Origin: Sipunculus nudus
Lineage: Eukaryota; Annelida; Sipuncula; Golfingiida; Sipunculidae
NCBI GenBank assembly: GCA_026874595.1
Contig: CM049313.1
Location: 79,414,659-79,478,658, forward strand
Direction: 5' to 3'
DNA length: 64,000 nt
This document shows positions 1-55,592 of this stretch, piece by piece (the first letter of the stretch is position 1; each line of letters starts with the position of its first letter). The notes under the pieces were generated by a model. That model made no database searches, was not told the origin of the DNA, and worked only from the letters and a program-made list of their open reading frames with translations. Both the position numbers and the translations under genes were made by a program.

Positions 1-3000
1 GAAGTTACCTATATAGGCAGGCAAGATTCCTTATGTTTTGTCCGGTGACCGTAAATGTACTGTTCGGTGAGGAGCCAAACCTGGGACGTTGTTAACGTTA
101 CTTCAGCCACAGCCTGGAAGGGGGCATTTTGGTGATCCATCGTGCTGTTGTATGGAAGTTACCTATATAGGCGGGCAAGATTCCTTATGTTTTGTCCGGT
201 GACCGTAAATGTACTATTCGGTGAGGAGCCAAACCTGGGACGTTGTTAACGATACGTCAGCCATAGCCTGGAAGGGGGCATTTTAGTGATCCATCGTGCT
301 GTTGTATGGAAGTTACCTATATAGGCGGGCAAGATTCCTTATGTTTTGTCCGGTGACCATAAAAATATACTGTTCGGTGAGGAGCCAAACCTGGGAAGTT
401 GTTAACGATACTTCAGCCATAGCCTGGAAGGGGGCATTTTGGTGATCCATCGTGCTGTTGTATGGAAGTTACCTATATAGGCGGGCAAGATTCCTTATGT
501 TTTGTCCGGTGACCGTAAGTACTGTTCGGTGAGGAGCCAAACCTGGGACGTTGTTAACGTTACTTCAGCCATAGCCTAGAAGGGGGCATTTGGGTGATCC
601 ATCGTCCTGTTGTATGGAAGTTACCTATATAGGCGGGCAAGATTCCTTATGTTTTGTCCGGTGACCGTAAATGTACTATCCGGTGAGGAGCCAAACCTGG
701 GACGTTGTTAACGATACTTCAGCCATAGCCTGGAAGGGGGCATTTTGGTGATCCATCGTGCTGTTGTATGGAAGTTACCTATATAGGCGGGCAAGATTCC
801 TTATGTTTTGTCAGGTGCCCGTAAATGTACTGTTCGGTGAGGAGCCAAACCTGGGACGTTGTTAACGATACTTCAGCCATAGCCTGGAAGGGGGCATTTT
901 GGTGATCCATAGTGCTGTTGTATGGAAGTTACCTATATAGGCGGGCAAGATTCCTTATGTTTTGTCCGGTGACCGTAAATGTACTGTTCGGTGAGGAGCC
1001 AAACCTGGGACGTTGTTAACGTTACTTCAGCCATAGCCTGGAAGGGGGCATTTTGGTGATCCATCGTGCTGTTGTATGGAAGTTACCTATATAGGCGGGC
1101 AAGATTCCTTATGTTTTGTCCGGTGACCGTAAATGTACTGTTCGGTGAGGAGCCAAACCTGGGACGTCGTTAACGTTACTTCAGCCATAGCCTGGAAGGG
1201 GGCATTTTGGTGATCCATCGTGCTGTTGTATGGAAGTTACCTATATAGGCGGGCAAGATTCCTTATGTTTTGTCCGGTGACCGTAAATGTACTGTTCGGT
1301 GAGGAGCCAAACCTGGGACGTTGTTAACGATACTTCAGCCATAGCCTGGAAGGGGGCATTTTGGTGATCCATCGTGCTGTTGTATGGAAGTTACCTATAT
1401 AGGCGGGCAAGATTCCTTATGTTTTGTCCGGTGACCGTAAATGTACTGTTCGGTGAGGAGCCAAACCTGGGACGTTGTTAACGTTACTTCAGCCATAGCC
1501 TGGAAGGGGGCATTTTGGTGATCCATCGTGCTGTTGTATGGAAGTTACCTATATAGGCGGGCAAGATTCCTTATGTTTTGTCCGGTTACCGTAAATGTAC
1601 TGTTCGGTGAGGAGCCAAACCTGGGACGTTGTTAACGATACTTCAGCTATAGCCTGGAAGGGGGCATTTGGGTGATCCATCGTGCTGTTGTATGGAAGTT
1701 ACCTATATAGGCGGGCAAGATTCCTTATGTTTTGTCCGGTGACCGTAAATGTACTGTTCGGTGAGGAGCCAAACCTGGGACGTTGTTAACGTTACTTCAG
1801 CCATAGCCTGGAAGGGGGCATTTTGGTGATCCATCGTGCCGTTGTATGGAAGTTACCTATATAGGCGGGCAAGATTCCTTATGTTTTGTCCGGTGACCGT
1901 AAATGTACTGTTCGGTGAGGAGCCAAACCTGGGACGTTGTTAACGATACTTAAGCCATAGCCTGGAAGGGGGCATTTTGGTGATCCATCGTGCCGTTGTA
2001 TGGAAGTTACCTATATAGTCGGGCAAGATTCCTTATGTTTTGTCCAGTGACGGTAAATGTACTGTCCGGTGAGGAGCCAAACCTGGGAGGTTGTTAACGA
2101 TACTTCAGCCATAGCCTGGAAGGGGGCATTTTGGTGATCCATCGTGCCGTTGTATGGAAGTTACCTATATAGGCGGGCAAGATTCCTTATGTTTTGTCCG
2201 GTGACCGTAAATGTACTGTTCGGTGAGGAGCCCAACCTGAGACGTTGTTAACGATACTTCAGCCATAGCCTGGAAGGGGGCATTTTGGTGATCCATCGTG
2301 CCGTTGTATGGAAGTTACCTATATAGGCGGGCAAGATTCCTTATGTTTTGTCCGGTGACCGTAAATGTACTGTTCGGTGAGGAGCCAAACCTGGGACGTT
2401 GTTAACGTTACTTCAGCCACAGCCTGGAAGGGGGCATTTTGGTGATCCATCGTGCTGTTGTATGGAAGTTACCTATATAGGCGGGCAAGATTCCTTATGT
2501 TTTGTCCGGTGACCGTAAATGTACTATTCGGTGAGGAGCCAAACCTGGGACGTTGTTAACGATACGTCAGCCATAGCCTGGAAGGGGGCATTTTAGTGAT
2601 CCATCGTGCTGTTGTATGGAAGTTACCTATATAGGCGGGCAAGATTCCTTATGTTTTGTCCGGTGACCGTAAATATACTGTTCGGTGAGGAGCCAAACCT
2701 GGGACGTTGTTAACGATACTTCAGCCATAGCCTGGAAGGGGGCATTTTGGTGATCCATCGTGCTGTTGTATGGAAGTTACCTATATAGGCGGGCAAGATT
2801 CCTTATGTTTTGTCCGGTGACCGTAAGTACTGTTCGGTGAGGAGCCAAACCTGGGACGTTGTTAACGTTACTTCAGCCATAGCCTAGAAGGGGGCATTTG
2901 GGTGATCCATCGTCCTGTTGTATGGAAGTTACCTATATAGGCGGGCAAGATTCCTTATGTTTTGTCCGGTGACCGTAAATGTACTATCCGGTGAGGAGCC

Positions 3001-6000
3001 AAACCTGGGACGTTGTTAACGATACTTCAGCCATAGCCTGGAAGGGGGCATTTTGGTGATCCATCGTGCTGTTGTATGGAAGTTACCTATATAGGCGGGC
3101 AAGATTCCTTATGTTTTGTCAGGTGCCCGTAAATGTACTGTTCGGTGAGGAGCCAAACCTGGGACGTTGTTAACGATACTTCAGCCATAGCCTGGAAGGG
3201 GGCATTTTGGTGATCCATAGTGCTGTTGTATGGAAGTTACCTATATAGGCGGGCAAGATTCCTTATGTTTAGTCCGGTGACCGTAAATGTACTGTTCGGT
3301 GAGGAGCCAAACCTGGGACGTTGTTAACGTTACTTCAGCCATAGCCTGGAAGGGGGCATTTTGGTGATCCATCGTGCTGTTGTATGGAAGTTACCTATAT
3401 AGGCGGGCAAGATTCCTTATGTTTTGTCCGGTGACCGTAAATGTACTGTTCGGTGAGGAGCCAAACCTGGGACGTCGTTAACGTTACTTCAGCCATAGCC
3501 TGGAAGGGGGCATTTTGGTGATCCATCGTGCTGTTGTATGGAAGTTACCTATATAGGCGGGCAAGATTCCTTATGTTTTGTCCGGTGACCGTAAATGTAC
3601 TGTTCGGTGAGGAGCCAAACCTGGGACGTTGTTAACGATACTTCAGCCATAGCCTGGAAGGGGGCATTTTGGTGATCGATCGTGCTGTTGTATGGAAGTT
3701 ACCTATATAGGCGGGCAAGATTCCTTATGTTTTGTCCGGTGACCGTAAATGTACTGTTCGGTGAGGAGCCAAACCTGGGACGTTGTTAACGTTACTTCAG
3801 CCATAGCCTGGAAGGGGGCATTTTGGTGATCCATCGTGCTGTTGTATGGAAGTTACCTATATAGGCGGGCAAGATTCCTTATGTTTTGTCCGGTTACCGT
3901 AAATGTACTGTTCGGTGAGGAGCCAAACCTGGGACGTTGTTAACGATACTTCAGCTATAGCCTGGAAGGGGGCATTTTGGTGATCCATCGTGCTGTTGTA
4001 TGGAAGTTACCTATATAGGCGGGCAAGATTCCTTATGTTTTGTCCGGTGACCGTAAATGTACTGTTCGGTGAGGAGCCAAACCTGGGACGTTGTTAACGT
4101 TACTTCAGCCATAGCCTGGAAGGGGGCATTTTGGTGATCCATCGTGCCGTTGTATGGAAGTTACCTATATAGGCGGGCAAGATTCCTTATGTTTTGTCCG
4201 GTGACCGTAAATGTACTGTTCGGTGAGGAGCCAAACCTGGGACGTTGTTAACGATACTTCAGCCATAGCCTGGAAGGGGGCATTTTGGTGATCCATCGTG
4301 CTGTTGTATGGAAGTTACCTATATAGGCGGGCAAGATTCCTTATGTTTTGTCCGGTGCCCGTAAATGTACTGTTCGGTGAGGAGCCAAACCTGGGATGTT
4401 GTTAACGATACTTCAGCTATAGCCTGGAAGGGGGCATTTGGGTGATCCATCGTGCTGTTGTATGGAAGTTACCTATATAGGCGGGCAAGATTCCTTATGT
4501 TTTGTCCGGTGACCGTAAATGTACTGTTCGGTGAGGAGCCAAACCTGGGATGTTGTTAACGTTACTTCAGCCATAGCCTGGAAGGGGGCATTTTGGTGAT
4601 CCATCGTGCTGTTGTATGGAAGTTACCTATATAGGCGGGCAAGATTCCTTATGTTTTGTCCGGTGACCGTAAATGTACTGTTCGGTGAGGAGCCAAACCT
4701 GGGACGTTGTTAACGATACTTCAGCCATAGCCTAGAAGGGGGCATTTTGGTGATCCATCGTGCTGTTGTATGGAAGTTACCTATATAGGCGGGCAAGATT
4801 CCTTAAGTTTTGTCTGGTGACCATAAATGTACTATTCGGTGAGGAGTCAAACCTGGGACGTTGTTAACGATACTTCAGCCATAGCCTGGAAGGGGGCATT
4901 TTGGTGATCCATCGTGCTGTTGTATGGAAGTTACCTATATAGGCGGGCAAGATTCCTTATGTTTTGTCCGGTGACCGTAAATGTACTGTTCGGTGTGGAG
5001 CCAAACCTGGGACGTTGTTAACGATACTTCAGCCATAGCCTGGAAGGGGGCATTTTGGTGATCCATCGTGCCGTTGTATGGAAGTTACCTATAAAGGCGG
5101 GCAAGATTCCTTATGTTTTGTCCGGTGACCGTAAATGTACTGTTCGGTGAGGAGCCAAACCTGGGACGTTGTTAACGATACTTCAGCCATAGCCTGGAAG
5201 GGGGCATTTTGGTGATCCATCGTGCTGTTGTATGGAAGTTACCTATATAGGTGGGCAAGATTCCTTATGTTTTGTCTGGTGACCGTAAATCTACAGTTCG
5301 GTGAGGAGCCAAAGCTGGGACGTTGTTAACGATACTTCAGCCATAGCCTGGAAGGGGGCATTTTGGTGATCCATCGTGCTGTTTAATGGAAGTTACCTAT
5401 ATAGGCGGGCAAGATTCCTTATGTTTTGTCCGGTGACCGTAAATGTACTGTTCGGTGAGGAGCCAAACCTGGGACGTTGTTAACGATGCTTCAGCCATAG
5501 CCTGGAAGGGGGCATTTTGGTGATCCATCGTGCTGTTGTATGGAAGTTACCTATATAGGCGGGCAAGATTCCTTATGTTTTGTCCGGTGACTGTAAATGT
5601 ACTGTTCGGTGAGGAGCCAAACCTGGGACGTTGTTAACGATACTTCAGCCATAGCCTGGAAGGGGGCATTTTGGTGATCCATCGTGCTGTTGTATGGAAG
5701 TTACCTATATAGGCGGGCAAGATTCCTTATGTTTTGTCCAGTGACCGTAAATGTACTGTCCGGTGATGAGCCAAACCTTGGACGTTGTTAATGATACTTC
5801 AGCCAAAGCCTGGAAGGGGGCATTTTGGTGATCCATCGTGCTGTTGTATGGAAGTTACCTATATAGGCGGGCAAGATTCCTTATGTTTTGTCCGGTGACC
5901 GTAAATGTACTGTCCGGTGAGGAGCCAAACCTGGGACGTTGTTAACGTTACTTCAGCCATAGCCTGGAAGGGGGCATTTTGGTGATCCATCGTGCTGTTG

Positions 6001-6690
6001 TATGGAAGTTACCTATATAGGCGGGCAAGATTCCTTATGTTTTGTCCGGTGACCGTAAATGCACTGTCCGGTGAGGAGCCAAACATAGGACGTTGTCAAC
6101 GATACTTCAGCCATAGCCTGGAAGGGGGCATTTTGGTGATCCATCGTGCTGTTGTATGGAAGTTACCTATATAGGCGGGCAAGATTCCTTATGTTTTGTC
6201 CGGTGACCGTAAATGCACTGTCCGGTGAGGAGCCAAACATGGGACGTTGTCAACGATACTTCAGCCATAGCCTGGAAGGGGGCATTTTGGTGATCCATCG
6301 TGCTGTTGTATGGAAGTTACCTATATAGGCGGGCAAGATTCCTTATGTTTTGTCCGGTGACCGTAAATGCACTGTCCGGTGAGGAGCCAAACATGGGACG
6401 TTGTCAACGATACTTCAGCCATAGCCTGGAAGGGGGCATTTTGGTGATCCATCGTGCTGTTGTATGGAAGTTACCTATATAGGCGGGCAAGATTCCTTAT
6501 GTTTTGTCCAGTGACCGTAAATGTACTGTTCGTTGAGGAGCCAAACCTGGGACGTTGTTAACGTTACTTCAGCCATAGCCTGGAAGGAGGCATCTCGGTG
6601 ATCAACAGTTATGGCACCGTGCCGGTGTATGGACGTTACGTATATTCAGGCAAGATTCCTACTTTGTTGTGGTGTTAAGGTACTGTTCGT
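1..6690. repeat. 154-bp satellite array with higher-order structure
   Basis: About 43 head-to-tail monomers, mostly 154 bp, fill the left edge and probably continue outside it. Each monomer has the landmarks ACCTATATAGGCGGGCAAG and GGAGCCAAACCTGGGACG. Marker variants recur together about 2308-2310 bp apart (a 2-bp-shorter monomer at 515 and 2823; TCAGGTGCCC at 811 and 3119; GACGTCGT at 1163 and 3471), showing a 15-monomer higher-order repeat present nearly twice, to about 4300. The array decays at 6590-6690. Since 154 is not a multiple of 3, the 60-codon open frames inside are by-products. Confidence 0.97.
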
Positions 6691-8660: not shown

Positions 8661-8862
8661 TGCGCTAATACAGCAGGATATCCAAGGGTTGAAAGGTGGA
8701 TACTTGTCACTTTCGCGGCTTGGAACCTCACGGTTATGCGTCGCGAATGTCTTCGTATGAAAAATTAAGCGCTGCGTTGTTTTTTCGGATATTCTGTACT
8801 TATCTGACTCTCCTATGTCACTGACACACGTTACTGTCACACGTTGCAAACAAACATCCTAC

Positions 8863-10642
8863 ATGTTGCTGTTACAGGAGCGTCGAACTACATTTTTTCT
8901 TTAACAGAAGCGGCGACCAACATGTTTCTGCTACAGGAGCATCGACTTACATGTTTTTTCTACAGGAACGGCGACCTTCATGTTTCTGCTACAGGAGCAT
9001 CGACTGACATGTTTCTTCTACAGGAACGGCGACCTTCATGTTTCTGCTACAGGAGCATCTACTTACATGTTTCTGCTACAGCAACGGCGACCTTCATGTT
9101 TCTGTTACAGGAGCGTCGACCTACATGTTTCTTACAGAACCATCGCCCTATATGTTTCTGTATAGAGCCGTTGACCTACATGCTTCTTTAACATGGTGCC
9201 CTTTTACAAACATGTTTCTTCTACAGTAGTGTCGACTAAAATGTTTCTGTTACAGCAGCGTCGACCAGCATTTTTCTTGAACAGGAGCGTCGGTCTTCAT
9301 GCTTCTTTTACAGGAGTGTCAACCTCCATTTTTCTGTAACAGAGCCATCGATCTAGAAGTTTTCGTTACAGGAGCGTCTACCTACATTTTTTCCTTAACA
9401 GGAGCGTCGACCTACATGTTTCCTTAACAGGAGCGTCGACCTACATGTTTTCTTAACAGGAGCGTCGACCTACATGTTTCGTTAATAGGAGCGTCGACCT
9501 ACATGTTTCGTTAACAGGAGCGTCGACCTACATGTTTCGTTAACAGGAGCGTCGACCTACATGTTTCGTTAACAGGAGCGTCGACCTACATGTTTCGTTA
9601 ACAGGAGCGTCGACCTTCATGTTTCGTTAACAGGAGCGTCGACCTACATGTTTCGTTAACGGGAGCGTCGACCTACATGTTTCGTTAACAGGAGCGTCGA
9701 CCTACATGTTTCTGTTACAGGGGCGTCGACATACATGTTTCGTTAATAGGAGCGTCGACCTACATGTTTCGTTAACAGGAGCGTCGACCTACATATTTCG
9801 TATTCTTGACTAAGCTGTACTTATCTAACTATACTATGTGGCTGTTACTGACACTCGTTACTGTCACACTCTGCAAACAAACAGCCTTCATGTTTCTGTT
9901 ACAAGAGTATCGAACTACATGTTCCTGTTACAGGAGCGGTGACCTACATATTTCTGTTACAGGGGTGTCGACGTACATGTTTCTGTTACAGGGGCGTCGA
10001 CATACATGTTTCTGCTACAGAGCCGTCACCCTATATGTTTCTGTACAGAGCCGTCGAACTACATGCTTCTTTAACACTAGCGTTAACCAACATGTTTCTT
10101 TTACAGGAGCGTCGACCTACATGTTTCCTTAACAGGAGCGTCGACCTACATGTTTCCTTAACAGGAGCGTCGACCTACATGTTTCGTTAACAGGAGCGTC
10201 GACCTACATGTTTCCTTAACAGGAGCGTCGACCTACATGTTTCCTTAACAGGAGCGTCGACCTACATGTTTCCTTAACAGGAGCGTCGACCTACATGTTT
10301 CCTTAACAGGAGCGTCGACCTACATGTTTCCTTAAACAGGAGCGTCGACCTACATGTTTCGTTAACAGAGCGTCGACCTACATGTTTCCGTTACAGAAGC
10401 GTGGACCTATATGTTTTTAACAGAAACGTCGACTTACAGGTTTCTGTTACGAGAGTATCGACTTACATGTCTCTCATCCGGCAGTGTCGGCCTACATGTT
10501 CCTGCTACACGGGCGTCGACCTACATGTTTTTGTACAGGAGTATTGGTCTACATGTTTCCGTTGCAGGGGCGTCGATACATATGTTTCTTTTACAGGAGC
10601 GTCGCTTTACATGTTTCTGTTACAGGAGTGTTGACCTACGTG
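8863..10642 (+). repeat. 29-bp acceptor-like minisatellite, gene A intron 3
   Basis: About 55-60 units of 29 bp end just before gene A exon 4. The unit reads TACATGTTTCTGTTACAG followed by GAGCGTCGACC; variants have TTTCGTTAACAG or TTTCCTTAACAG. Each has a short pyrimidine tract followed by CAG, like a 3' splice site. The array consists of two blocks (8863-9805 and about 9886-10642), each preceded by a related leader with CTGTACTTATCT (8797 and 9816) and GTTACTGTCACAC, so the array plus leader was duplicated. Open frames here are peptide echoes of the repeat (MFLLQERRP and similar). The array lies upstream of, not inside, the conserved exon. Confidence 0.93.
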
Positions 10643-10670
10643 TTCAGGTTTATTTCTTTTCGTTTCACAG

Positions 10671-35200: not shown

Positions 35201-38200
35201 TAACCTCTTGATCATTCTGTTAAAGAATTATCGGCCAACATGCTTTTGCTACAGGTGCGTCACCCAACATCATTCAGTTACAGGAGTCGACCTACTTGTT
35301 TCTCTTACAGGTGCATCGACCTACATTTTTCTGTTACAGGAATGTCAACCTAAATGTTTTTGTTACAGGAGGGTCGTCTTACATGTATCCTCTACAGGGG
35401 CGTCGACCTACATGTTTTTGTACAGGAGTATCGGTCTACATGTTTCTGTTACAGGAATGTCAACCTAAATGTTTTTGTTACAGGAGGGTCGTCTTACATG
35501 TATCCTCTACAGGGGCGTCGACCTACATGTTTTTGTACAGGAGTATCGGTCTACATGTTTCTGTTACAGGAATGTCAACCTAAATGTTTTTGTTACAGGA
35601 GTGTCGTCTTACATGTATCCTCTACAGGGGCGTCGACCTACATGTTTTTGTACAGGAGTATCGGTCTACATGTTTCTGTTACAGGAATGTCAACCTAAAT
35701 GTTTTTTATACAGGAGTGTCGTCTTACATGTATCCTCTACAGGGGCGTCGACCTACATGTTTTTGTACAGGAGTATCGGTCTACATGTTTCTGTTACAGG
35801 AATGTCAACCTAAATGTTTTTGTTACAGGAGTGTCGTCTTACATGTATCCTCTACAGGGGCGTCGACCTACATGTTTTTGTACAGGAGTATCGGTCTACA
35901 TGTTTCTGTTACAGGAATGTCAACCTAAATGTTTTTGTTACAGGAGTGTCGTCTTACATGTATCCTCTACAGGGGCGTCGACCTACATGTTTTTGTACAG
36001 GAGTATCGGTCTACATGTTTCTGTTACAGGAATGTCAACCTAAATGTTTTTGTTACAGGAGTGTCGCCTTACATGTATCCTCTACAGGGGAGTCTACCTA
36101 CGTGTTTCTGTTACAGGAATGTCAACCTAAATGTTTTTGTTACAGGAGTGTCGTCTTACATGTATCCGCTACAGGGGCGTCGACCTACATGTTTTTGTAC
36201 AGGAGTATCGGTCTACATGTTTCTGTTACAGGAATGTCAACCTAAATGTTTTTGTTACAGGAGTGTCGCCTTACATGTATCCTCTACAGGGGAGTCTACC
36301 TACGTGTTTCTGTTACAGGAATGTCAACCTAAATGTTTTTGTTACAGGAGTGTCGTCTTACATGTATCCGCTACAGGGGCGTCGACCTACATGTTTTTGT
36401 ACAGTATCGGTCAATATGTTTCCGTTGCAGGAGCGTCGATTAACATGTTTCTCTTACAGGAGCGTCGCTTGACATGTTTCTTTTACAGGAGCGTCGCTTG
36501 ACATGTTTCTGTTACAGGAGCGTCGGCCTACATGTTCAGGTTTATTTCTTTTCGTTTCACAGAGTACATGAACAACCGAGACTGTCTGAGCAAACATTCC
36601 CTGGCTGTAGCAGGAGAGGCCTGTACCAATGAATTTAAAAGAAAATCAAACTCTTTGAAAAATATGGCATCAGCAGGATCAGTCACGGAATCCGAGTTCA
36701 AGGAAGAAGCGTGCAGGTAATGTTGTGAATGTGAATGACTGATTTTTGTTATTTGTCGATGATATAAGTAAGGTGCCACACACAATGACGGCAGCAACCT
36801 GTCCGCTGGCTGGTCTAGGCTGATCTGTGTGTTTGTTTGTTTGTCCATCGAGTTTACTCCTAAAGTCGCCCTAAAGACGCCTAATGGCATTATCTTCGGA
36901 CTCGGTGCTTATCTGTTACAAGGGCAGCAAAAGAAATCTTATATTTTCTATTTGACTAGGGCGAGGACGAAAATATGAAATATAACTTTTGTTCAGTATC
37001 TCAATTATTATAAATATTGGATGAAATTCTAAGGCTGAACCTATACTAGGATCTCAGGACAAAAACCTTCATTCTGCTGTTACCGTGGTGACGAATTATG
37101 GACAACAGTATTTTTCTATCTGGGTCACTGACTTTTGTTTGGGAGATAAAGTTTTTTCAACAAAACGTATAACTCGACGGGCTTTAAGGGCAATATAACA
37201 AACGAGAAATGGTAAATATCAAAATTTTTAGGCAACAGAGGTCTAGTGCTTAGCAGCAGGTGATAGGCTTCAGGGATCTAATTACATGCTGCTGTCAAAC
37301 GAGAATAAGCGAGATTTCAAGAAAAATACGTTTAGCTCAGTAATTCATTATAGGGGATTAGGTTTCGACTTTGTGTTGCACTGGATAAAGTGTCTGTAAT
37401 AGACACGGATGAAATCTCTTCAAATGTCTACAAAACGTGTGTGTAGAACTTTTTATCATAACTGGAGCCTTTTTATGATAACGGGAACCTCAAATACGGA
37501 AAAATGGTTCTAGTGGTAGCCATTTTTTATATCATGAATCTTAGAGTGTACAAAACCCATTACACTTTTGATGCGCAAAGATATCTATGCCATACATATA
37601 GGAAATGGTGTCAGAATCTGTTGTTTACTTTTGCTCATTACAGAAGAATTGACGAGGCTGAGAAATGTGTCCACGACGCAGTGAGGAGAGAGTGTTCTGA
37701 GGAGGCCGCCATGTTTGTTCAGACCTTCGTGGATAAAAAGCTGCATCACCTGAAGAATACTATTGGGTGAGAAGTTGTTTTTTACCCGGAAGTTAGTTAA
37801 CCGGATTGCTGACAGGTGGCACCACACTCGGAAGGTGATCGACTCAATGTGTCAGAAAAAAGAACGAACTGGTCTCTTACACAGACAAACGGAGGCTAAT
37901 GAAAAACTAAAATAGTCCAAACAGACCGCATACCTCCGCTAAGTTGAGAACAAACTTAATTACAGGATCCGATGATTTTTCCGGGTGTATGTCCCATCCC
38001 TCAACCATGCTTTGTGACAAGGGATCAAGCAGTTTTGGTGAAAGTAAACCACGCAGTCGACAAAAAACAGTTGACTGCTCCCAACCAACATGATGGACGA
38101 AGTGATTTTTTTTCAAGTTTATCATCTTGTACCATTGTGTTTTCAGGTGCTTTGTCCAGAGCGGTGATCATTTTGATCGTGTTTGCTGTCATGTTGGCGG

Positions 38201-39126: not shown

Positions 39127-39919
39127 GTAAGATTTGGCATGATAGGTTGTATATTCTTGTATTTCATGTCTCACTTAATGAGTTCAATGGGCCTCTATCT
39201 CTCATTTGCAGCTGTTCTCAATAATAAGAATATTTTAATTATTATTATAACTTTACTGATTTTGTGAATTTAATCTTTCGTATACATTCAAACCTCTGCA
39301 TTACCTTGTGACATATCACACATGTATAACAAGCCTTTGTTCCATGATGCCTGGCTACTGATTGCATAATCTCCTAGTCATGGTCACTGGGTCCCGTATT
39401 TGTACAGGCCAGATCCTAATCTGTTAATCTCATCAGGGTAAAGGTGTTGATCTCATCAGGGTGACCACTAATGGTGGGGTCCCGTGATGTTTGGTCAGCT
39501 AAGAGCACACACAGATAGATGATATCAGGATAACGTATAATTACACTGTATGTAGACCTTGTGTATGTCAGGGTATAATCAACAAACTCTCATTTCATTG
39601 GCCAGTATAGGGGATGGAGTTCACCTCACCCATCTGACCAATGGAATGAATGGGTGATGTTATTGGTTATATTCAAATGAGATAGAGAACAAAAACCATG
39701 GGATAATTATGTGTGGGCAGATTTCCACTTTGGCGACTCGGCACCTAGGACAGTTTCTGTGTATGGACATTTTTATCATATACTTAATACAAGAAGAATA
39801 AAAAATGGTTACCTAAGTTACCGAATTTGTGTGTTGTGGCTGTGTGCCACAAGTGCCACGAACTTGCCTGAAGGAGAGCGTGACTGGGAGAAAGACGAAG
39901 TTTATATAGTAAAGTAACA

Positions 39920-40062
39920 TGAGTTTACATTGGTGTCGCGTGCCAGGTCGAACTAAAATGTCAGATCACACGCCTAGAGATAGAAAAACCCCTGCACCAA
40001 CGGAGAGAGCAGTGTTCAAGCACATGAAATGGAACAAAAATCAAATACGCTGCCGAAACTGA
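39920..40062 (+). other. possible LTR-element primer site and gag start inside the foldback
   Basis: TTACAT is followed by TGGTGTCGCGTGCCAGGT (39931-39948), which resembles an LTR 3' end plus a tRNA primer binding site beginning with TGG. A short frame then starts with ATG at 39958 (MSDHTPRDRKTPAPTERAVF) and stops near 40060. It would be a captured piece of an LTR retrotransposon. No second LTR is seen. Confidence 0.28.
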
Positions 40063-40619
40063 CGCCTCTACAATCCCTGTGGTCCTGATGTGTCCATCAA
40101 GAAACGCTAGCAGTGTCACAAGCTGTGGAGAGGCCATGCAGAACGCTCAGGATGACAGTAAGAAGTTAAACGTCGAAGAATTTTATTTTATTATTATATA
40201 TGCTTCTAAAAAAAAAGAATGTAAAACGTCTTTATATATGATTATAAAAAAATAATGACAGAATGTATATTTTTTTTTATTTTGTGACATTTCAATGTGT
40301 ATTGTAAATAAGAATTCTATGAGCTTTTCAGTTCTCACTTTATCAGGTGTAATTTGATTTATGGTTGTCTTTGTATTTTGATAGTTCCCAGTCCTAAATA
40401 TTAGATCGTCCTGCTGTGTGCTGCAAATTTTAAATATAGTTCTGGGTGACAGATTCACTGCATATGCCATCATGTGAGGCATAGACTTAAACTTGAAACA
40501 CTATGTATACATATTCTTGAGGCAATTATTTATAGATGTACTTTAGATAAACCAAGTTATCACTTCAGAAATTAAAACGGAAATGTCTTATTTATGAATC
40601 TATAAACATCATGTTTTGA

Positions 40620-42195
40620 GCTGAATGTTGTACACTGTTTATTGATTGTCCCCTGAATATTAGATCTGACTGTATGGGTGGAACAGATAAGACTAATTTC
40701 ATGTTGATAGAGTCACAATGCTAAAGGGGCCAGCATAGATTTGGACGTTCAATACAGTGCATAGTCATGAAGCTAAACATTAAATTTTAAATTACTAGAC
40801 GCAAGTTCATATTGAACCACTCTTTTCATTTATAACACTTTTATTTTACATTAAGCTGAATGTTGTACACTGTTTATTGATTGTCTCCTGAATATTAGAT
40901 CTGACTGTATAGGCGAACAGATAAGACTAATTTCGTGATGATAAAGTCACGATGCCAAGGGGTTCAGCATAGACTTGGACGTTCAATCAAGTGCATATAG
41001 TCATGAAGCTAAACAGTAAATTTTAAATCATTAGACACAAGTTCATATTGAATCACTCTTTTCATTTATAACACTTTTATTTTACATTAAGCTGAATGTT
41101 GTACACTGTTTATTGATTGTCCCCTGAATATTAGATCTGACTGTATGGGTGGAACAGATAAGACTAATTTCATGTTGATAGAGTCACAATGCTAAAGGGG
41201 CCAGCATAGACTTGGACGTTCAATACAGTGCATAGTCATGAAGCTAAACATTAAATTTTAAATTACTAGACGCAAGTTCATATTGAACCACTCTTTTCAT
41301 TTATAACACTTATTTTACATTAAGCTGAATGTTGTACACTGTTTATTGATTGTCCCCTGAATATTAGATCTGACTGTATAGGCGAACAGATAAGACTAAT
41401 TTCGTGGTGATAAAGCCACGATGCTAAGGGGTTCAGCATAGACTTGGACGTTCAATCAAGTGCATATAGTCATGAAGCTAAACAGTAAATTTTAAATCAT
41501 TAGACACAAGTTCATATTGAATCACTCTTTTCATTTATAACACTTTTATTTTACATTAAGCTGAATGTTGTACACTGTTTATTGATTGTCCCCTGAATAT
41601 TAGATCTGACTGTATGGGTGGAACAGATAAGACTAATTTCATGTTGATAGAGTCACAATGCTAAAGGGGCCAGCATAGACTTGGACGTTCAATACAGTGC
41701 ATAGTCATGAAGCTAAACATTAAATTTTAAATTACTAGACGCAAGTTCATATTGAACCACTCTTTTCATTTATAACACTTATTTTACATTAAGCTGAATG
41801 TTGTACACTGTTTATTGATTGTCCCCTGAATATTAGATCTGACTGTATAGGCGAACAGAAAAGACTAATTTCGTGGTGATAAAGTCACGATGCTAAGGGG
41901 TTCAGCATAGACTTGGACGTTCAATCAAGTGCATATAGTCATGAAGCTAAACAGTAAATTTTAAATCATTAGACACAAGTTCATATTGAATCACTCTTTT
42001 CATTTATAACACTTTTATTTTACATTAAGCTGAATGTTGTACACTGTTTATTGATTGTCCCCTGAATATTAGATCTGACTGTATGGGTGGAACAGATAAG
42101 ACTAATTTCATGTTGATAGAGTCACAATGCTAAAGGGGCCAGCATAGACTTGGACGTTCAATACAGTGCATAGTCATGAAGCTAAACATTAAATT
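40620..42195. repeat. 235-bp tandem repeat, alternating dimer
   Basis: Seven monomers start with GCTGAATGTTGTACACTG at 40620, 40855, 41091, 41324, 41560, 41793 and 42029. Two types alternate strictly: one with TGGGTGGAACAG and AAAGGGGCCAGC, the other with TAGGCGAACAG and AAGGGGTTCAGC. The true unit is therefore a dimer of about 470 bp. The last monomer runs directly into the right arm. Confidence 0.95.
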
Positions 42196-42712
42196 GTCAG
42201 ATGGGTGAGGTGAACTCCATCCCCTATACTGGCCAATGAAATGAGAGTTTGTTGATTATACCCTGACATACACAAGGTCTACATACAGTGTAATTATACG
42301 TTATCCTGATATCATCTATCTGTGTGTGCTCTTAGCTGACCAAACATCACGGGACCCCACCATTAGTGGTCACCCTGATGAGATCAACACCTTTACCCTG
42401 ATGAGATTAACAGATTAGGATCTGGCCTGTACAAATACGGGACCCAGTGACCATGACTAGGAGATTATGCAATCAGTAGCCAGGCATCATGGAACAAAGG
42501 CTTGTTATACATGTGTGATATGTCACAAGGTAATGCAGAGGTTTGAATGTATACGAAAGATTAAATTCACAAAATCAGTAAAGTTATAATAATAATTAAA
42601 ATATTCTTATTATTGAGAACAGCTGCAAATGAGAGAGAGAGGCCCATTGAACTCATTAAGTGAGACATGAAATACAAGAATATACAACCTATCATGCCAA
42701 ATCTTACACTGT

Positions 42713-45887: not shown

Positions 45888-48800
45888 ATGACTAGGCAGA
45901 GAACAACATTGATTACTGTGATATGCCTCAGTTACGGTAAGAATGATGTTATATTTATACTGTTCAATGTAATTAATTTGAGCATTATCTTTCATTGTTA
46001 AAGATGGTAAATATAAACGGCTGCACTATATTAGATTATCAAATTACACAATCTTCTATAATTACTGTTATTATTAATGTTTACCCTCTATATACTGATG
46101 AAAAACCATGCAGGAATTTTAAGTTCGATGTCGAATATAGTCATTTTCTGCATCGAATTAGTTGCGTGTGCTTTCAGCGGCTTTGACTGTGAGGGGGCAG
46201 TGCAGTACTGACAACATACTTAGATGCGTCCGCGGCACAATCTTTGAGCAGTCACTTCAGAACAAGGATATGTTGGTCCACTACTCGGCTGCGCAATTCG
46301 AACAAGTGTGCAGGTAAAGCACTAGTTTAATATAACATTCCCACATAGCAGTGACACCTGCTGGTCAGGAATGACACTGAGTGTTCGGGCCTCTTTCATA
46401 AAAAAAGACAGAACATCTTTTTTTTTGCAACTCAGATGATAAAACGTAAAAACCTACCTTTCCTTTACGGTAAGATTCCTGCCGATTTGCCCGGTTTTGT
46501 TTCATTTCATTACAATACCTAAAATACTGGCTCACTGAATCATTTTGCGCAGTGCAAATGCGTGTGGAAAGAGGTCTATTATCGGTCAATATTTTCCCGT
46601 TTACAAGCTTCTCAGCTGAAAGATTAAATAAGGTCATATACATCACCCACATTAATTATTAAATGAATGTTGAAAGGAAAACATTCTACGACTTTGTTAC
46701 ATATTATTGAATGATGATAATGGATCTTGAAGAAGGAGTAGAAGTCAAAATGTGGCTGTGGAGACATATCGGGAAATCACCGAGCGTCTGTTATGTAACC
46801 TGCGGATGAGGGTAATCAAAACATTTTGCTTATGTATTAAAAAAATATTGCATAAGTTATCTACAGACACTGCTCAATCAATCCACAAATACTACTTGTG
46901 TAATGCACAATGTATTGTTGATATATTCCAGAATATTTAATGCGTATATGTGTAATCTATAAAATATTGCCTATAAATTTGTTTTGCAGGGAATTCTCGG
47001 ACGTAGAGCGATGCTGGCGGCCTGTATTACGGACCTGCCCACGGACTGTTAGACTGCTTGTAGACGGACTGATTGACGGTGTTAATTATCTGTGTGGCGA
47101 GGGAAAACAAGGTAAGTCAATAATACGGACCTGTCAACCAAATGTTAGACTGCTTGTAGACGGTCTGATTGACGGTGTTAATTATCTGTGTGGCGAGGGA
47201 AAACAAGGTAAGTCAATAATACGGACCTGTCAACCAAATGTTAGACTGCTTGTAGACGGTCTGATTGATGGTGTTAATTATCTGTGTGGCGAGGGAAAAC
47301 AAGGTAAGTCAATAATACGGACCTGTCAACCAAATGTTAGACTGCTTGTAGACGGTCTGATTGACGGTGTTAATTATCTGTGTGGCGAGGGAAAACAAGG
47401 TAAGTGAATAATACGGACGTGTCAACCAACTGTTAGACTGCTTGTAGACGGTCTGATTGACGGTGTTAATTATCTGTGTGGCGAGGGAAAACAAGGTAAG
47501 TCAATAATACGGACCTGTCAACCAACTGTTAGACTGCTTGTAGACGGACTGATTGACGGTGTTAATTATCTGTGTGGCGAGGGAAAACAAGGTAAGTGAA
47601 TAATACGGACCTGTCAACCAACTGTTAGACTGCTTGTAGACGGTCTGATTGACGGTGTTAATTATCTGTGTGGCGAGGGAAAACAAGGTAAGTGAATAAT
47701 ACGGACCTGTCAACCAAATGTTAGACTGCTTGTAGACGGACTGATTGTCGGTGTTAATTATCTGTGTGGCGAGGGAAAACAAGGTAAGTGAATAACACGG
47801 ACCTGTCAACCAAATGTTAGACTGCTTGTAGACGGACTGATTGACGATGTTATTTATCTGTGTGGCGAGGGAAAACAAGGTAAGTGAATAATACGGACCT
47901 GTCAACCAAATGTTAGACTGCTTGTAGACGGACTGATTGACGGTGTTAATTATCTGTGTGGCGAGGGAAAACAAGGTAAGTGAATAATACGGACCTGTCA
48001 ACCAAATGTTAGACTGCTTGTAGACGGTCTGATTGACGGTGTTAATTATCTGTGTGGCGAGGGAAAACAAGGTAAGTGAATAACACGGACCTGTCAACCA
48101 ACTGTTAGACTGCTTGTAGACGGTCTGATTGACGGTGTTAATTATCTGTATGGCGAGGGAAAACAAGGTAAGTCAATAATACGGACCTGTCAACCAAATG
48201 TTAGACTGCTTGTAGACGGACTGATTGACGGTGTTAATTATCTGTGTGGCGAGGGAAAACAAGGTAAGTGAATAATACGGACCTGTCAACCAAATGTTAG
48301 ACTGCTTGTAGACGGTCTGATTGACGGTGTTTATTATCTGTGTGGCGAGGGAAAACAAGGTAAGTGAATAATACGGACCTGTCAACCAAATGTTAGACTG
48401 CTTGTAGACGGACTGATTGACGGTGTTAATTATCTGTGTGGAGAGGGAAAACAAGGTAAGTGAATAATACGGACCTGTCAACCAAATTTTAGACTGCTTG
48501 TAGACGGTCTGATTGACGGTGTTAATTATCTGTGTGGCGAGGGAAAACAAGGTAAGTCAATAATACGGACCTGTCAACCAACTGTTAGACTGCTTGTAGA
48601 CGGTCTGATTGACGGTGTTAATTATCTGTGTGGCGAGGGAAAACAAGGTAAGTCAATAATACGGACCTGTCAACCAAATGTTAGACTGCTTGTAGACGGT
48701 CTGATTGACGGTGTTAATTATCTGTGTGGCGAGGGAAAACAAGGTAAGTCAATAATACGGACCTGTCAACCAAATGTTAGACTGCTTGTAGACGGACTGA

Positions 48801-50936
48801 TTGACGATGTTAATTATCTGAGTGGCGAGGGAAAACAAGGTAAGTCAATAATACGGACCTGTCAACCAAATGTTAGACTGCTTGTAGACGGTCTGATTGA
48901 CGATGTTAATTATCTGTGTGGCGAGGGAAAACAAGGTAAGTCAATAATACGGACCTGTCAACCAACAGTTAGACTGCTTGTAGACGGTATGATTGACGAT
49001 GTTAATTATCTGTGTGGCGAGGGAAAACAAGGTAAGTCAATAATACGGACCTGTCAACCAACTGTTAGACTGCTTGTAGACGGTCTGATTGACGATGTTA
49101 ATTATCTGTGTGGGCAGGGCATACAAGGTAAGACAGCCGCACCGTTATGCTTACAGTAGAATTTCCCTATTACCAATGTGTAAAATTCTGATTTCTATTA
49201 TATTTGGACTTCAAATGCCTATGTTGTTATTATCCCTATAATAGTGGTTGGAGCTGTTCAATAAGTATTGCCTGCCAATAATTATAATTAATCGTTTTGA
49301 TAGTTTATTACTCTGAAACTGGAATATTGGTTAAATTACATATTAACTGAGCCATAACGGAATAAAAATAATATTTTATACTATTTTTTATCTACTTTCT
49401 GATAACTACAATCAGTATAACCCAAGGAATAGTTTAAAATTCCACGTTAAAGAACGTTTGTTTTTTCCCCGAAAATTACAGAAACCAATAGTTTGAGGAA
49501 GTATCCGTTTATCACTGGAACATTAAATCTGTATATACAATAAAACAAACCAAATTATAGCAACATGAATGAGTCATTATTTAGGGAAGGCCGCAGATTA
49601 GCAGAGGCAAATATTTATGTAACTGTGTTAATTAAAATCCCCAGCATACCTAAGAAACGTAAACTGTTTTACCAACCGGAACTTGATGACTAAAGTTCAT
49701 CACTGCACCGAAGTGCTGAAGAGACAGCAACAGGATATTCAAAGGGCAGCTACCAGGTTTCATGGCTCCGCTGTGGAGATCAGGGCCAAGGGATGCAGGT
49801 TTGTACCCTTTATACGGATGTCAACCCTCCAAAGGTGGATATCGGGATCCGGGATGCTTTCTGTTGTAACAAATCCTTTCTATGTAGAACTAATGATGAC
49901 GAGATGATTACCTGTATAAATAGCTTTCCTGTATTCCTGTATTAGAGGAGCATGTTTAATGCAAATGTACATTAATTTGTACCATATCTTTAGATAACAA
50001 CTTTTTGAAAAATTCTTCGAGTGTCAGTCATGTTTAGTTACTTTCAGTCATTGGCATTGAGATTGTGCAATCAATCTGTGCGCTGACACTTTGACGAAAA
50101 AATTTAGACCTGCAATAATCTTTTACACAGAGTTTATCCCATAAATTAACTCCCCTAACTGAAACATCAAACTCACCAAACTTCATCAAATTTCAGCGCC
50201 GTAACTGGATGCGTCCTTGTCCAAACCTTGTTGAATATGTTTGGATTATTTTGACGTAAGCGCGTTGGGATCGGCGTTTTCTCCTGGAAATATCATTCTA
50301 AGCGGAACTATTTCGTTTTAAAAACCAGTTTTCATGCATCCTACCGATTATTATTGAATATTTCTTTGTATGTTACACGTCGCAGAATGGTCGCTGATTA
50401 TGAGAGCTGTGTCAGCACCGCTGTGCTGAGACAGTGCAGTTCTGAAGGCGCGGACTTAATGAAGACTGTTATGGACAAAGTTCTCGGTCCTTCCAGTCGA
50501 CTCCTTAACTGTGGTAAGCATTGGACAGCCCGTGTTACTGTGTACTTGACATCCACCTGCAACCTCTTTTTGACTCCCATCACTCTATTTTTTAACTTGT
50601 TCTTGAATGTTTAAACAGCCATTAATGTACGACTATCACAACTCCTAACATATTTACAAAAAATAAGAAGGTTATTTAAAGTAAGGCAAGTGATATATAA
50701 TACATATATATTATCGATTGACAATAATAGTTTTAATTACATGGTCAAGTATTATGTTGATAATTTATTAATATATTTGTATGTATACACAGAAAGTTAT
50801 CTTTTATGATTTTATATTAGATGGAAACATTTTTATGTTTCACTCACAATAAAGAGATACAGCGAATTGATAAGAGAGAATGACAGAAAACGAGAGAGAG
50901 ACGGAGACAGCCAGCCAGACAGACAGACAAACATAA

Positions 50937-51287: not shown

Positions 51288-52054
51288 CATACAGAGAGAG
51301 AGAGAGAGACATAGACAGAGAGACAGACAGACAGAGACTGACTGAGTGAGAGGCAGACAGAGAGAAAGACAGAGAGTGAAACAGACACAGAGAGAGAGAG
51401 AAAGAGAGAGAGAGAGGAGAGAGAGAGAGAATGAGACAGAGACAGACAGATAGAGAGAGAGACAGACAGAAAAAGCAGACAGAGAGACTGACGGACAGAA
51501 AGGCAGACAGAGAGACAGACAGAGAGAGACAGAGACGGAGAGAGACAGACAGAGATACAGAGACAGAATGAGAGAGACAGAGAGAGAGAGAGACAGAGAG
51601 TGAAACAGAGAGAGATAGAGAGAGAGACAGACAGACAGACAGATAGCTAGACAGACAGACAGACAGAGAGCTTTTCACCAACTACAATGGTTGTCAATAA
51701 TTGTGTCTTTTGTCACATTTGTACTTTGGCAGTTCTATTTTGTTGCAGCTCCTCGAGTCATATCCGGGTTCTCAGTACCACCTCATGCACCTAATGACAG
51801 TACGTACGACAATATAACAACACAGCCTTTACACACCAATGCACACGCAAATACAAACCAAATTTTGTCTAAAATATAACTAATTTAGCAGGTGTGGCAC
51901 TGGTTTGCTAGCGTTGTCACGTATACATCAGCCAATTAATAATAACAATAATAATTCCTCGGCGTGATTAAATCATGGCTTCGCCTCGCGATTGCCATGA
52001 ATGACACACGCCTCGTAAAATCTTACATGTTGTATAACATTCCAGTGGGCTATA

Positions 52055-52793: not shown

Positions 52794-55592
52794 CAATCTA
52801 TTTTTCTATATATAATATTATTTTTTTTTCATTGATGTTATTTTCATTAGCTTAGCTATTTGGACGGTTCTTTGTTCTGTCCTTTAGCAGGTTACAAACA
52901 GTGTGTAACAGTTAGAGCTAACCTTAGAGCTTTCCTTTGTAACATATTTATCTAAGCTTGCGAGGTCTTGATAGTGAGGCTGGTCTGTTATCCCTGAGCT
53001 ACATAACCGAATAAAAACACCAAACTAATGCTGACGTTTCACCTTGAACAGCTTGAAAAAGAGTGAAGAATATTCATTTTGGTCAAGGTTATCGAGACAT
53101 AATTGTATGTGAAACGAGGAGAGTTTTGGGTATGAGGCTGGCTACGATTAAGATATTTGTTGATATGTTTCAGGGCCTCTGAATACTCCCAGACTCCCCG
53201 GTAATGGTACGTATACAAACAAAGCCCCAGACTATATGCTAGACTGAAGGATTATTTTTTTTTGTATAAAGACAGCTAAATAATATACTCTTTGTGTTCC
53301 CTTATGCTAAATTTATACTTTATGTTGTTTATTTTTTACCATTTCGATTTCCTGGTAAAGTTGCTACAATTCATATATGGTATATAGGTGTGTTGCTTCG
53401 AAGAGACTGTAATTTATTTATGGTGTAAGGTACTTCATATTTAAATTACCACATTTTACATATGGTTTAAGATACATTGTGTTTAACTGGCGGGCTTTGA
53501 TATGTGGTTGACACCGTTAGTTAAGTGACGGAATCACGCTATTTCTAAAATATTACAATTTGGCTTACTTATATTTATGCTTCTTTAGCAATCTTTGTAA
53601 TCAAAAAAGAAATAGCGCTAAATCCCATGTTTGTTCGATAATTATCATGATGTATTGAAGATGTGGGCGGTGCTACTTTCAAAATATATTTAAATTTAAT
53701 TGTTGCAGCACCGGAGAAGATACATGACTTCTCCCAAGTTGGTAAGTAATACACACACGCATACGCACACACGGACGCACACACAAGAGCGGCGCAATTT
53801 GAGAATAGACTGACAGCCTATGTGAAATAACTTCACAGTAAAGGCAGAGGAAGGTTGTACAGGGGATTATATATGTTGACCCTGAACTCATTATATATAA
53901 GTGAGACATGTCAAACCAGTAATGGATATTCTACATAGTAGGCCTATTATATATGAGCACCCTAATGTTGTACTGAAGGAAATTGGGGGGGAAGGGGGGG
54001 GGTAAATAAAATTTCCTTTATTGATTGTACCTTCTTGTAAGGTTTTAGTACGGCTTTAAAAACATCAGCATAGTAAACACTTCCGTCCTTGAGTCCTTGC
54101 CAATAAGATACAATGAATTAGAAAGCATTCAGAAACCGCATACCACCGCCAGTGTCAGCTTGGTCACCAGATCAGGAGTACAAGCAATGATCATGATTAG
54201 ACTGTGTTGTGTTTCATGTAAGCGCGGTAAATTATATGGACCAACACCGAGAAGTATTTGTGTTAAGATTCACCAGTTTGGTGGCTGGATAACAGGTCAG
54301 CTATGCTCGTCTGAACAAAGCGACTAGCCGGCTCAAATAAGGTCTCACCTGCACATATGTCAGGATGTGGAGACATTATTCGGAAATTTTTACATTTATT
54401 GTGTACATTGTACTGGCGAATGACGACGATCTCGCCCACGACCGCGATAAACAAATTATAATGGTAAAGAACACTTATGGGGATCAATATTGCTCAAATT
54501 ATTACTTTGCCTCGGCAAGTTTCACAAAAAATGGTAAGCTTGTGAGTAAAGTTGCTATAAACTAATCCACTAATTAAGATTTAAACCTCACCTCCGCCAC
54601 CTGGCATGGGTAATTTTAGCGCGAGTCACCACTGACGAATGGTTGTGGGGCCCCTCAATATACTTACCCCTGGCGACCTCTGCATGCTCACATTATATTT
54701 TCCCGTTAATAAAACCGTCTCAAGTGAAAGTATCCTGTTGGCGGTACTGATAAGAGGGCACACTACGCTAATAATACTGCACCGATTGACTTCAACATAC
54801 GGCGTCATGCACGTAATTATACATCAGGTTTTATGCGATCATTCCGCTGAATAAATACCCGTGGTAGGTAGAAGTGCTCCACATAACACAGTTATGACTT
54901 TCGATCTTAACATTTTCAAACTGAAAATGAACAGTTTTTAAAAATTATTTCATTGCTATATACACAGATTACGTTTAATATTGATCATAATTAAAATCTC
55001 GACATAAATTATAACCAAGCGGGCATGTTTATCCTCTACCACGCATAATAATGGGGCGGGTAATAGTCTATGTATATAAAACTTAATTATATGTTTATAC
55101 ATCCTAGTTGTATTTCTCAACTTCTCAGATTAAAATAAATAAAAAATAGAGTTTTTTTTCTTCTTATATTTAGCTCTTTATATCCCATAGATGTTTTGAG
55201 CCACCCCCCCCCCCCCCACCCCCCCACCCATTGATGTATTTTAAATACACCACATTGGATAATCACACAAAAAAAACAAAGTTGTATTGTACAAGTCTAT
55301 ATGGTAGTGTTACACATTGCGGGATCATAACCATGGTAAATAAGAAAATACATGAGGTCTTTTGTTGCATTATGAATCAGTATGGTAATTAACTTTCTGA
55401 TATATTTTCCGGTAAGATGAAGCAGACGACTTCCGGACCAACTGGCTCATAGTGACTCTTGCTGTAAGCGGTGGCCTGTTTGTATTTGGAGTGGTCGGTG
55501 TCATTGCGTTTGTATACAAAAGATCCAAACGTCACGTGGCTGAATCTGGGGACTTCAGCAATCAACCTTATAGGAAACTTCCTGAGGTCTAA
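45888..55592 (+). CDS. gene C: two-domain Cys-rich single-pass membrane protein
   Basis: Nine coding exons with matching phases: 45888-45936, 46178-46313, 46990-47111 (first donor), 49696-49798, 50386-50513, 51749-51799, 53174-53206, 53709-53741 and 55417-55592; 276 residues. Residues 1-21 are a signal peptide. Domain 1 has Cys 25, 33, 61, 70, 78 and 97 (C-x7-C-x27-C-x8-C-x7-C-x18-C). Domain 2 has Cys 106, 136, 145, 154 and 179; the second Cys found in gene B is missing. Residues 180-218 are a Pro-rich stalk from three small exons; 228-252 is the membrane segment, then KRSKR and a short tail with YRKL. An acceptor-like AG at 45872 suggests a 5' untranslated intron. AATAAA lies at 55741. The exon 3 donor border is repeated 22 times (separate entry), so the real exon 3 end is uncertain. 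Function unknown; probably a plasma-membrane receptor or adhesion protein. Confidence 0.84.
47025..49137 (+). repeat. 96-bp array duplicating the exon 3/donor border of gene C, 22 copies
   Basis: Twenty-two donors, each CAAG/GTAAG, lie at 47111 + 96n up to 49127 with no indel. Each unit holds the last 25 or so codons of exon 3 (RTCxPxVRLLVDGLID and VNYLCGEGKQ), the donor and the first 13-14 intron bases. The unit is 32 codons, so reading past a donor stays in frame unless the base after GTAAGT is G (TGA); units 1-3, 5, 12 and 16-21 have C (open), units 4, 6-11 and 13-15 have G (stop). The last unit has GTAAGACAG. An open frame of four units runs from exon 3 to 47407. The minus-strand frames (up to 221 codons) are shadows. 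Confidence 0.96.
50862..51672. repeat. purine-rich GACAGA/GA simple repeat with (TA)n core
   Basis: About 810 bp of almost pure (GA/GACAGA)n on the plus strand with a TA tract at 51186-51255, in gene C intron 5. The long Ser/Leu/Val frame on the minus strand is low-complexity translation, not a gene. Confidence 0.96.
52060..52112. repeat. (TA)n microsatellite in gene C intron 6
   Basis: TA run of about 52 bp. A second run near 52752-52778 continues into (GT)n. Confidence 0.96.

Follow-up and report, generated by a model that had tools for sequence, protein, structure and literature searches.

The 3' end of a coding exon in gene C of the sipunculan Sipunculus nudus lies within a 96-bp minisatellite of 22 copies, each of which holds a donor consensus, and it is likely that the first of these donors is the one used, copies 2-22 being passengers within intron 3, with perhaps a minor use of donors 2-4. 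The window, that is the whole stretch of 64,000 nt analysed here, corresponds to C8:79414659-79478658 (CM049313.1) in a genome of 1.43 Gb and 153 contigs; all gene C features are given on the + strand of the window.

An earlier note on this DNA had claimed 22 donors at exact 96-bp steps without a single length change, and this is borne out: the exact sequence CAAGGTAAG occurs 22 times (starts 47108 to 49124, span 47108-49132, from the sequence and pattern counts), with a spacing of 96 bp in 21 of 21 intervals and no indel. Chance would be expected to yield 0.54 occurrences, and none of 100 dinucleotide shuffles reached 22. Tandem Repeats Finder reports a period of 96, 21.9 copies, 96% matches and 0% indels over 47028-49132. 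The 96-bp unit fits the minisatellite range of 15-100 bp that one abstract gives. CAAG/GTAAG is indeed present in every unit, as previously described, with the added detail that the next base makes the donor hexamer GTAAGT in donors 1-21 and GTAAGA in donor 22. The 5' edge of the array (TACGGACC, about 47028) falls inside exon 3, so that copy 1, which is the end of exon 3 itself, comprises about 84 of the 96 columns. When a 401-base piece of the array was searched against its own genome at the DNA level, all seven reported matches fell within the gene C array, in a search that scores best candidates only and skips very common words.

Gene C exons were located through homology to paralogous genes of this genome, giving a model of nine exons. 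Exon 1 (45888..45936) would encode a signal peptide, having an ATG, a hydrophobic start, a GTAAGA donor and an open joined reading frame; exon 2 (46178..46313) has a homologous exon in gene B and in paralog loci; exon 3, if ended at donor 1, covers 122 nt (46990..47111) and is supported by paralog homology; exon 4 is placed at 49645..49798; and exon 5 (50386..50513) has homologous exons in genes A and B and in the paralogous loci L028 and L029. Splice sites and frame point to three short linker exons (exons 6 to 8: 51749..51799, 53174..53206 and 53709..53741) and to a last exon (55417..55592) with a hydrophobic transmembrane-like stretch, a short tail and the stop. With donor 1 and exon 4 at 49645, intron 3 measures 2533 nt (47112..49644) and the model is open over 293 aa, with 12 ectodomain cysteines followed by the hydrophobic stretch and the tail.

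The earlier note saw one upstream acceptor (46989) and one downstream acceptor (49695); the former is kept in the model and the latter is probably unused, exon 4 homology reaching back to 49645. The residues encoded from 49645 (residue 2 or 3 on) gave tblastn matches to gene B, L028, L029 and L032 (E 9e-6 to 0.01) and a weaker one to L035 (E 0.07), E values whose meaning is bounded by a database of ten sequences only, and this start supplies the cysteine that takes the ectodomain total to 12. Exon 4 thus probably starts at 49645, as far as homology can tell. On a small family acceptor matrix, from whose training set the 49645 acceptor was excluded, both candidates score poorly, that of the earlier note being higher (-4.7 for 49645, -1.9 for 49696). 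The ectodomain resembles the cysteine-rich DUF19 (PF01579) and CPG4 (PF15481) domains, matching both weakly with its 12 cysteines and remaining under the curated Pfam cut-offs (19.9 bits vs 23.2 and 23.3 vs 32.7, respectively).

Which of the 22 donors is the old one can be read from the relatives of gene C. Exon 3 is 122 nt long in six of the seven measured paralogs and 125 nt in the seventh, and gene C exon 3 up to donor 1 is likewise 122 nt. In the paralogs the exon ends just past a conserved YLCG or YMCG, the place homologous to donor 1; the donor 9-mer is found once within the next 3 kb in each of the seven, and an enlarged exon 3 in none of them. Copy 1 also shares more residues with the closest paralog, L028, than the later-unit consensus does (16/30 vs 11/30). 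Given the length and end of exon 3 in the paralogs, and the greater nearness of copy 1 to L028, donor 1 (CAAG/GTAAG at 47108..47116, intron start 47112) is, on paralog comparison, the ancestral end of exon 3, and copies 2-22 are extra. In L028 itself (C8:38705209 region) the donor of exon 3 in the corresponding position appears weak by eye (ATAG/GTTGGT).

The consequences of using each donor differ sharply along the array. Because the 96-bp unit amounts to 32 codons, the phase is common to all donors, and exon 3 remains open through donors 1-4, with lengths of 122, 218, 314 and 410 nt. Donors 2-4 (47204..47404; intron starts 47208, 47304 and 47400) would add 32, 64 and 96 residues in frame. 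At the seventh base past the exon end there is either a C or a G, giving the open form GTAAGTCA or the form with a stop, GTAAGTGA, donor 22 reading GTAAGACA. The first in-frame TGA (47405-47407) lies within the GTAAGTGA of donor 4, and is taken in by all 18 donors from 5 to 22 (47492..49132), which meet a premature stop with 91-1723 nt of the enlarged exon 3 still to follow; of the 21 later units, 10 carry the TGA. This frame analysis used the exon 4 start at 49695, a choice immaterial to these stops since they lie inside exon 3. With 20 other donors of the family as the training set of a matrix (left-out scores 1.4-12.2), the array donors score 10.7-12.3; donors 2 and 3 equal donor 1 (12.3) and donor 4 comes close (11.3). 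The proposal that each of the 22 could be spliced to exon 4 therefore stands in part: competing donors are present and all are strong, but a full protein is predicted from donors 1-4 only, the TGA being included by the rest.

Sequence variation within the array was also considered. The 20 variants, in 19 columns, comprise 13 nonsynonymous, 6 synonymous and 1 stop change, for expected shares of 69, 27 and 4% (transitions weighted 2:1), and look neutral, in a comparison that has little power with so few variants. Adjacent units differ by 2.8 bases on average vs 3.4 after shuffling (P 0.0016), neighbours being more alike as local duplication predicts. Selection on the donor motif was tried as a candidate and rejected: none of the 19 variable columns falls within the 10 donor columns (21 units, P 0.10) and the longest invariant run of columns is 19 (P 0.21), so that the invariant donor columns are weakly compatible with constraint. 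Folding of exon 3 with the first units revealed no RNA structure beyond that of shuffled sequence (z-score -0.04; 8 of 20 shuffles fold equally well or better).

Taken together, these observations favor a passive origin. A 96-bp segment running from the interior of exon 3 to just beyond its 5' splice site would have been duplicated in tandem and would have grown to 22 copies by local unequal exchange or slippage; every copy holds a donor because the duplicated piece held it. Exon definition most likely pairs the acceptor at 46989 with donor 1 (47111/47112), producing a 122-nt exon, and copies 2-22 would then ride along within intron 3. If donors 2-4 were used now and then, the in-frame additions given above would result, and transcripts from donors 5-22, with their early stop, would likely be degraded. 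For this reading speak the 122-nt exon, the open 293-aa model, the spread of TGA, the neutral-looking variants and a DUF19 score that falls from 19.9 to 13.9 bits, both under the 23.2 cut-off, when one array unit is inserted, the CPG4 score being nearly unchanged (23.3 to 23.0). Against it, donor 22 is nearest to exon 4, so that acceptor proximity would favor donor 22; donors 2-4 are as strong as donor 1 or nearly so; and the length of the unit keeps the frame (1/3 by chance).

These last two points are also what an alternative draws upon, in which donors 1-4 are all truly used, adding 0-3 extra modules of 32 residues that each contain two cysteines, and donors 5-22 act as a poison tail reducing expression, both effects being tuned by copy number. 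The kept frame, the openness and about equal strength of donors 1-4 and the two cysteines that the first, second and third extra units each add would suit it, and it has a parallel in human IFI6, where two downstream repeat units serve as donors and yield three mRNAs according to a citing paper (PMC4526556). The absence of an enlarged exon 3 among the seven measured paralogs, the DUF19 score that falls with an extra unit and, as a weak test, array variation without coding constraint argue against it, and we regard it as unlikely. Its stronger form, a splice switch tunable by copy number in which 0-3 modules are added through donors 1-4 and transcripts are sent to decay through donors 5-22, is decidedly unlikely; if true, repeat length polymorphism would set the size and amount of a membrane receptor-like protein.

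An error of assembly, by which the copy number was inflated or collapsed, deserves mention since tandem arrays are error-prone, but the mean difference between units is 3.4 bases, neighbors being more alike, and the array extends over just 2.1 kb within an 81 Mb contig, so that this explanation appears very improbable. The unit could also be a miniature intron plus exon, spliced between GTAAGT and an acceptor within the unit (CTGCTTGTAG/AC) with 48 nt out and 48 nt in, at phase 1; the TGA-bearing part would then be removed and up to 21 in-phase mini-exons of 16 residues joined. The exact 48/48 split, the phase and the confinement of the TGAs to the intron half fit this scheme, as does the lack of any variable column among the 16 around the acceptor (P 0.02, uncorrected for the five AGs tried). 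However, the commonest form of the acceptor (13 copies) scores -5.5, equal to the median of the background, whereas 22 family acceptors score 3.2-13.8; the mini-exon half has 9 nonsynonymous vs 5 synonymous changes, with its cysteine lost in two units; and 48 nt is far under the other measured gene C introns (241, 676 and 587 nt). Both the scheme and its chain of joined mini-exons are highly doubtful, and are retained as a low-probability rival since the homology-favored exon 4 acceptor (-4.7) scores little better and an internal AG at 48444, in unit 15 alone, reaches 5.1.

A recursive splice site consists of a polypyrimidine tract and AG directly ahead of a donor GT. Recursive splicing was rejected, as the pre-donor sequence (GGCGAGGGAAAACAAG in most units) is purine-rich and has no pyrimidine tract, its commonest form (18 copies) scoring -13.7 as an acceptor on a first matrix with 4 training acceptors one base off (96% of background AGs equal or higher), and the pre-donor AG being absent from the 12 best AGs of the array on the corrected matrix.

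The short repeat unit of human IFI6, of 12 bp, lies at the end of exon 2. This gene (6-16, G1P3) has been described as carrying a minisatellite that provides several splice donors (Turri, Cuin and Porter 1995, Nucleic Acids Res 23:1854), so that the statement in the earlier note that no such case was known has a precedent in print against it. In both genes a minisatellite provides repeated splice donors to one transcript, but donor use in IFI6 is reported in mRNA, whereas in gene C it is predicted from sequence; gene C also differs from the short IFI6 unit in its 96-bp unit, its 21 extra copies and its in-frame stops from donor 5. The gene C array is best filed as a larger IFI6-like case by anatomy, with putative use of multiple donors. 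In the potato RdRp gene, an intron gain through tandem duplication across an exon-intron boundary is described (PMC4974935), and there as here a boundary-crossing duplication copies splice signals. A new intron was detected in potato, whereas the duplicated boundary of gene C has a donor and not an acceptor, its candidate for intron gain being the 48-nt segment whose acceptor scores at the background median. A search of the general literature on repeat arrays or competing donors found no match.

To what extent does a repeat holding a donor word need a special cause? Genome-wide, tandem (triple) occurrences of AGGTAAGT number 2311 vs 1953 for the reversed octamer, and by gap (4-34, 35-65 and 66-96) 307, 1024 and 980 vs 376, 691 and 886; only the middle class stands 1.5-fold over the control, the others being below or near it. 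These counts are of overlapping matches, many from few arrays, and a single reversed octamer is a thin control; in sum, a marked genome-wide excess of AGGTAAGT arrays over this control was not found. Such arrays are about as common as the control, so a repeat that holds the donor word calls for no particular cause. Minisatellites abound in this genome, an array with a donor word is unremarkable in it, and the start inside a real exon is the special part.

Gene C offers a natural competition experiment, with 21 identical GTAAGT donors and one variant set at 96-nt steps in a near-identical exonic context, where the donor chosen is legible as exon length (122, 218, 314 nt, etc.). Should cDNA contain donor 1 only, this would be a clean demonstration of exon definition, and otherwise an isoform series dependent on copy number. 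It is also a warning for gene predictors, which could misplace the end of exon 3 or the start of exon 4 here.

Other repeats were noted in the window and beyond. Intron 3 of paralogs A and B contains 29-bp arrays (8858-10644 and 35215-36536). The unit (TTTCTGTTACAGGAG...) looks like a strong 3' splice site, and dozens of copies of it immediately precede the true exon 4 acceptor; 29 of 106 and 37 of 71 of the AGs in these arrays, respectively, match or exceed the median score of left-out family acceptors. By homology, the exon 4 edge in both would lie outside the array and adjoin the exon body, in keeping with exon definition. Positions 1-6603 hold a 154-bp satellite of about 43 copies (96% matches) that extends beyond the window start. 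At 39340-42520, flanks that are mutual reverse complements by eye (about 39380-39680 and 42200-42500) surround a tandem array of about 236 bp, an arrangement suggestive of a transposable element with long terminal inverted repeats. Elsewhere in the genome, the 42-bp and 36-bp minisatellite units at C2:8512622-8514269 and C3:3275611-3275762 appear by eye to be whole tiny introns set head to tail (GTAAGT ... pyrimidines ... CAG), and the units of a 78-bp array on the minus strand of C2:54154873-54163677 appear, likewise by eye, to be EGF-type coding repeats, each with AGGTAAGTG.
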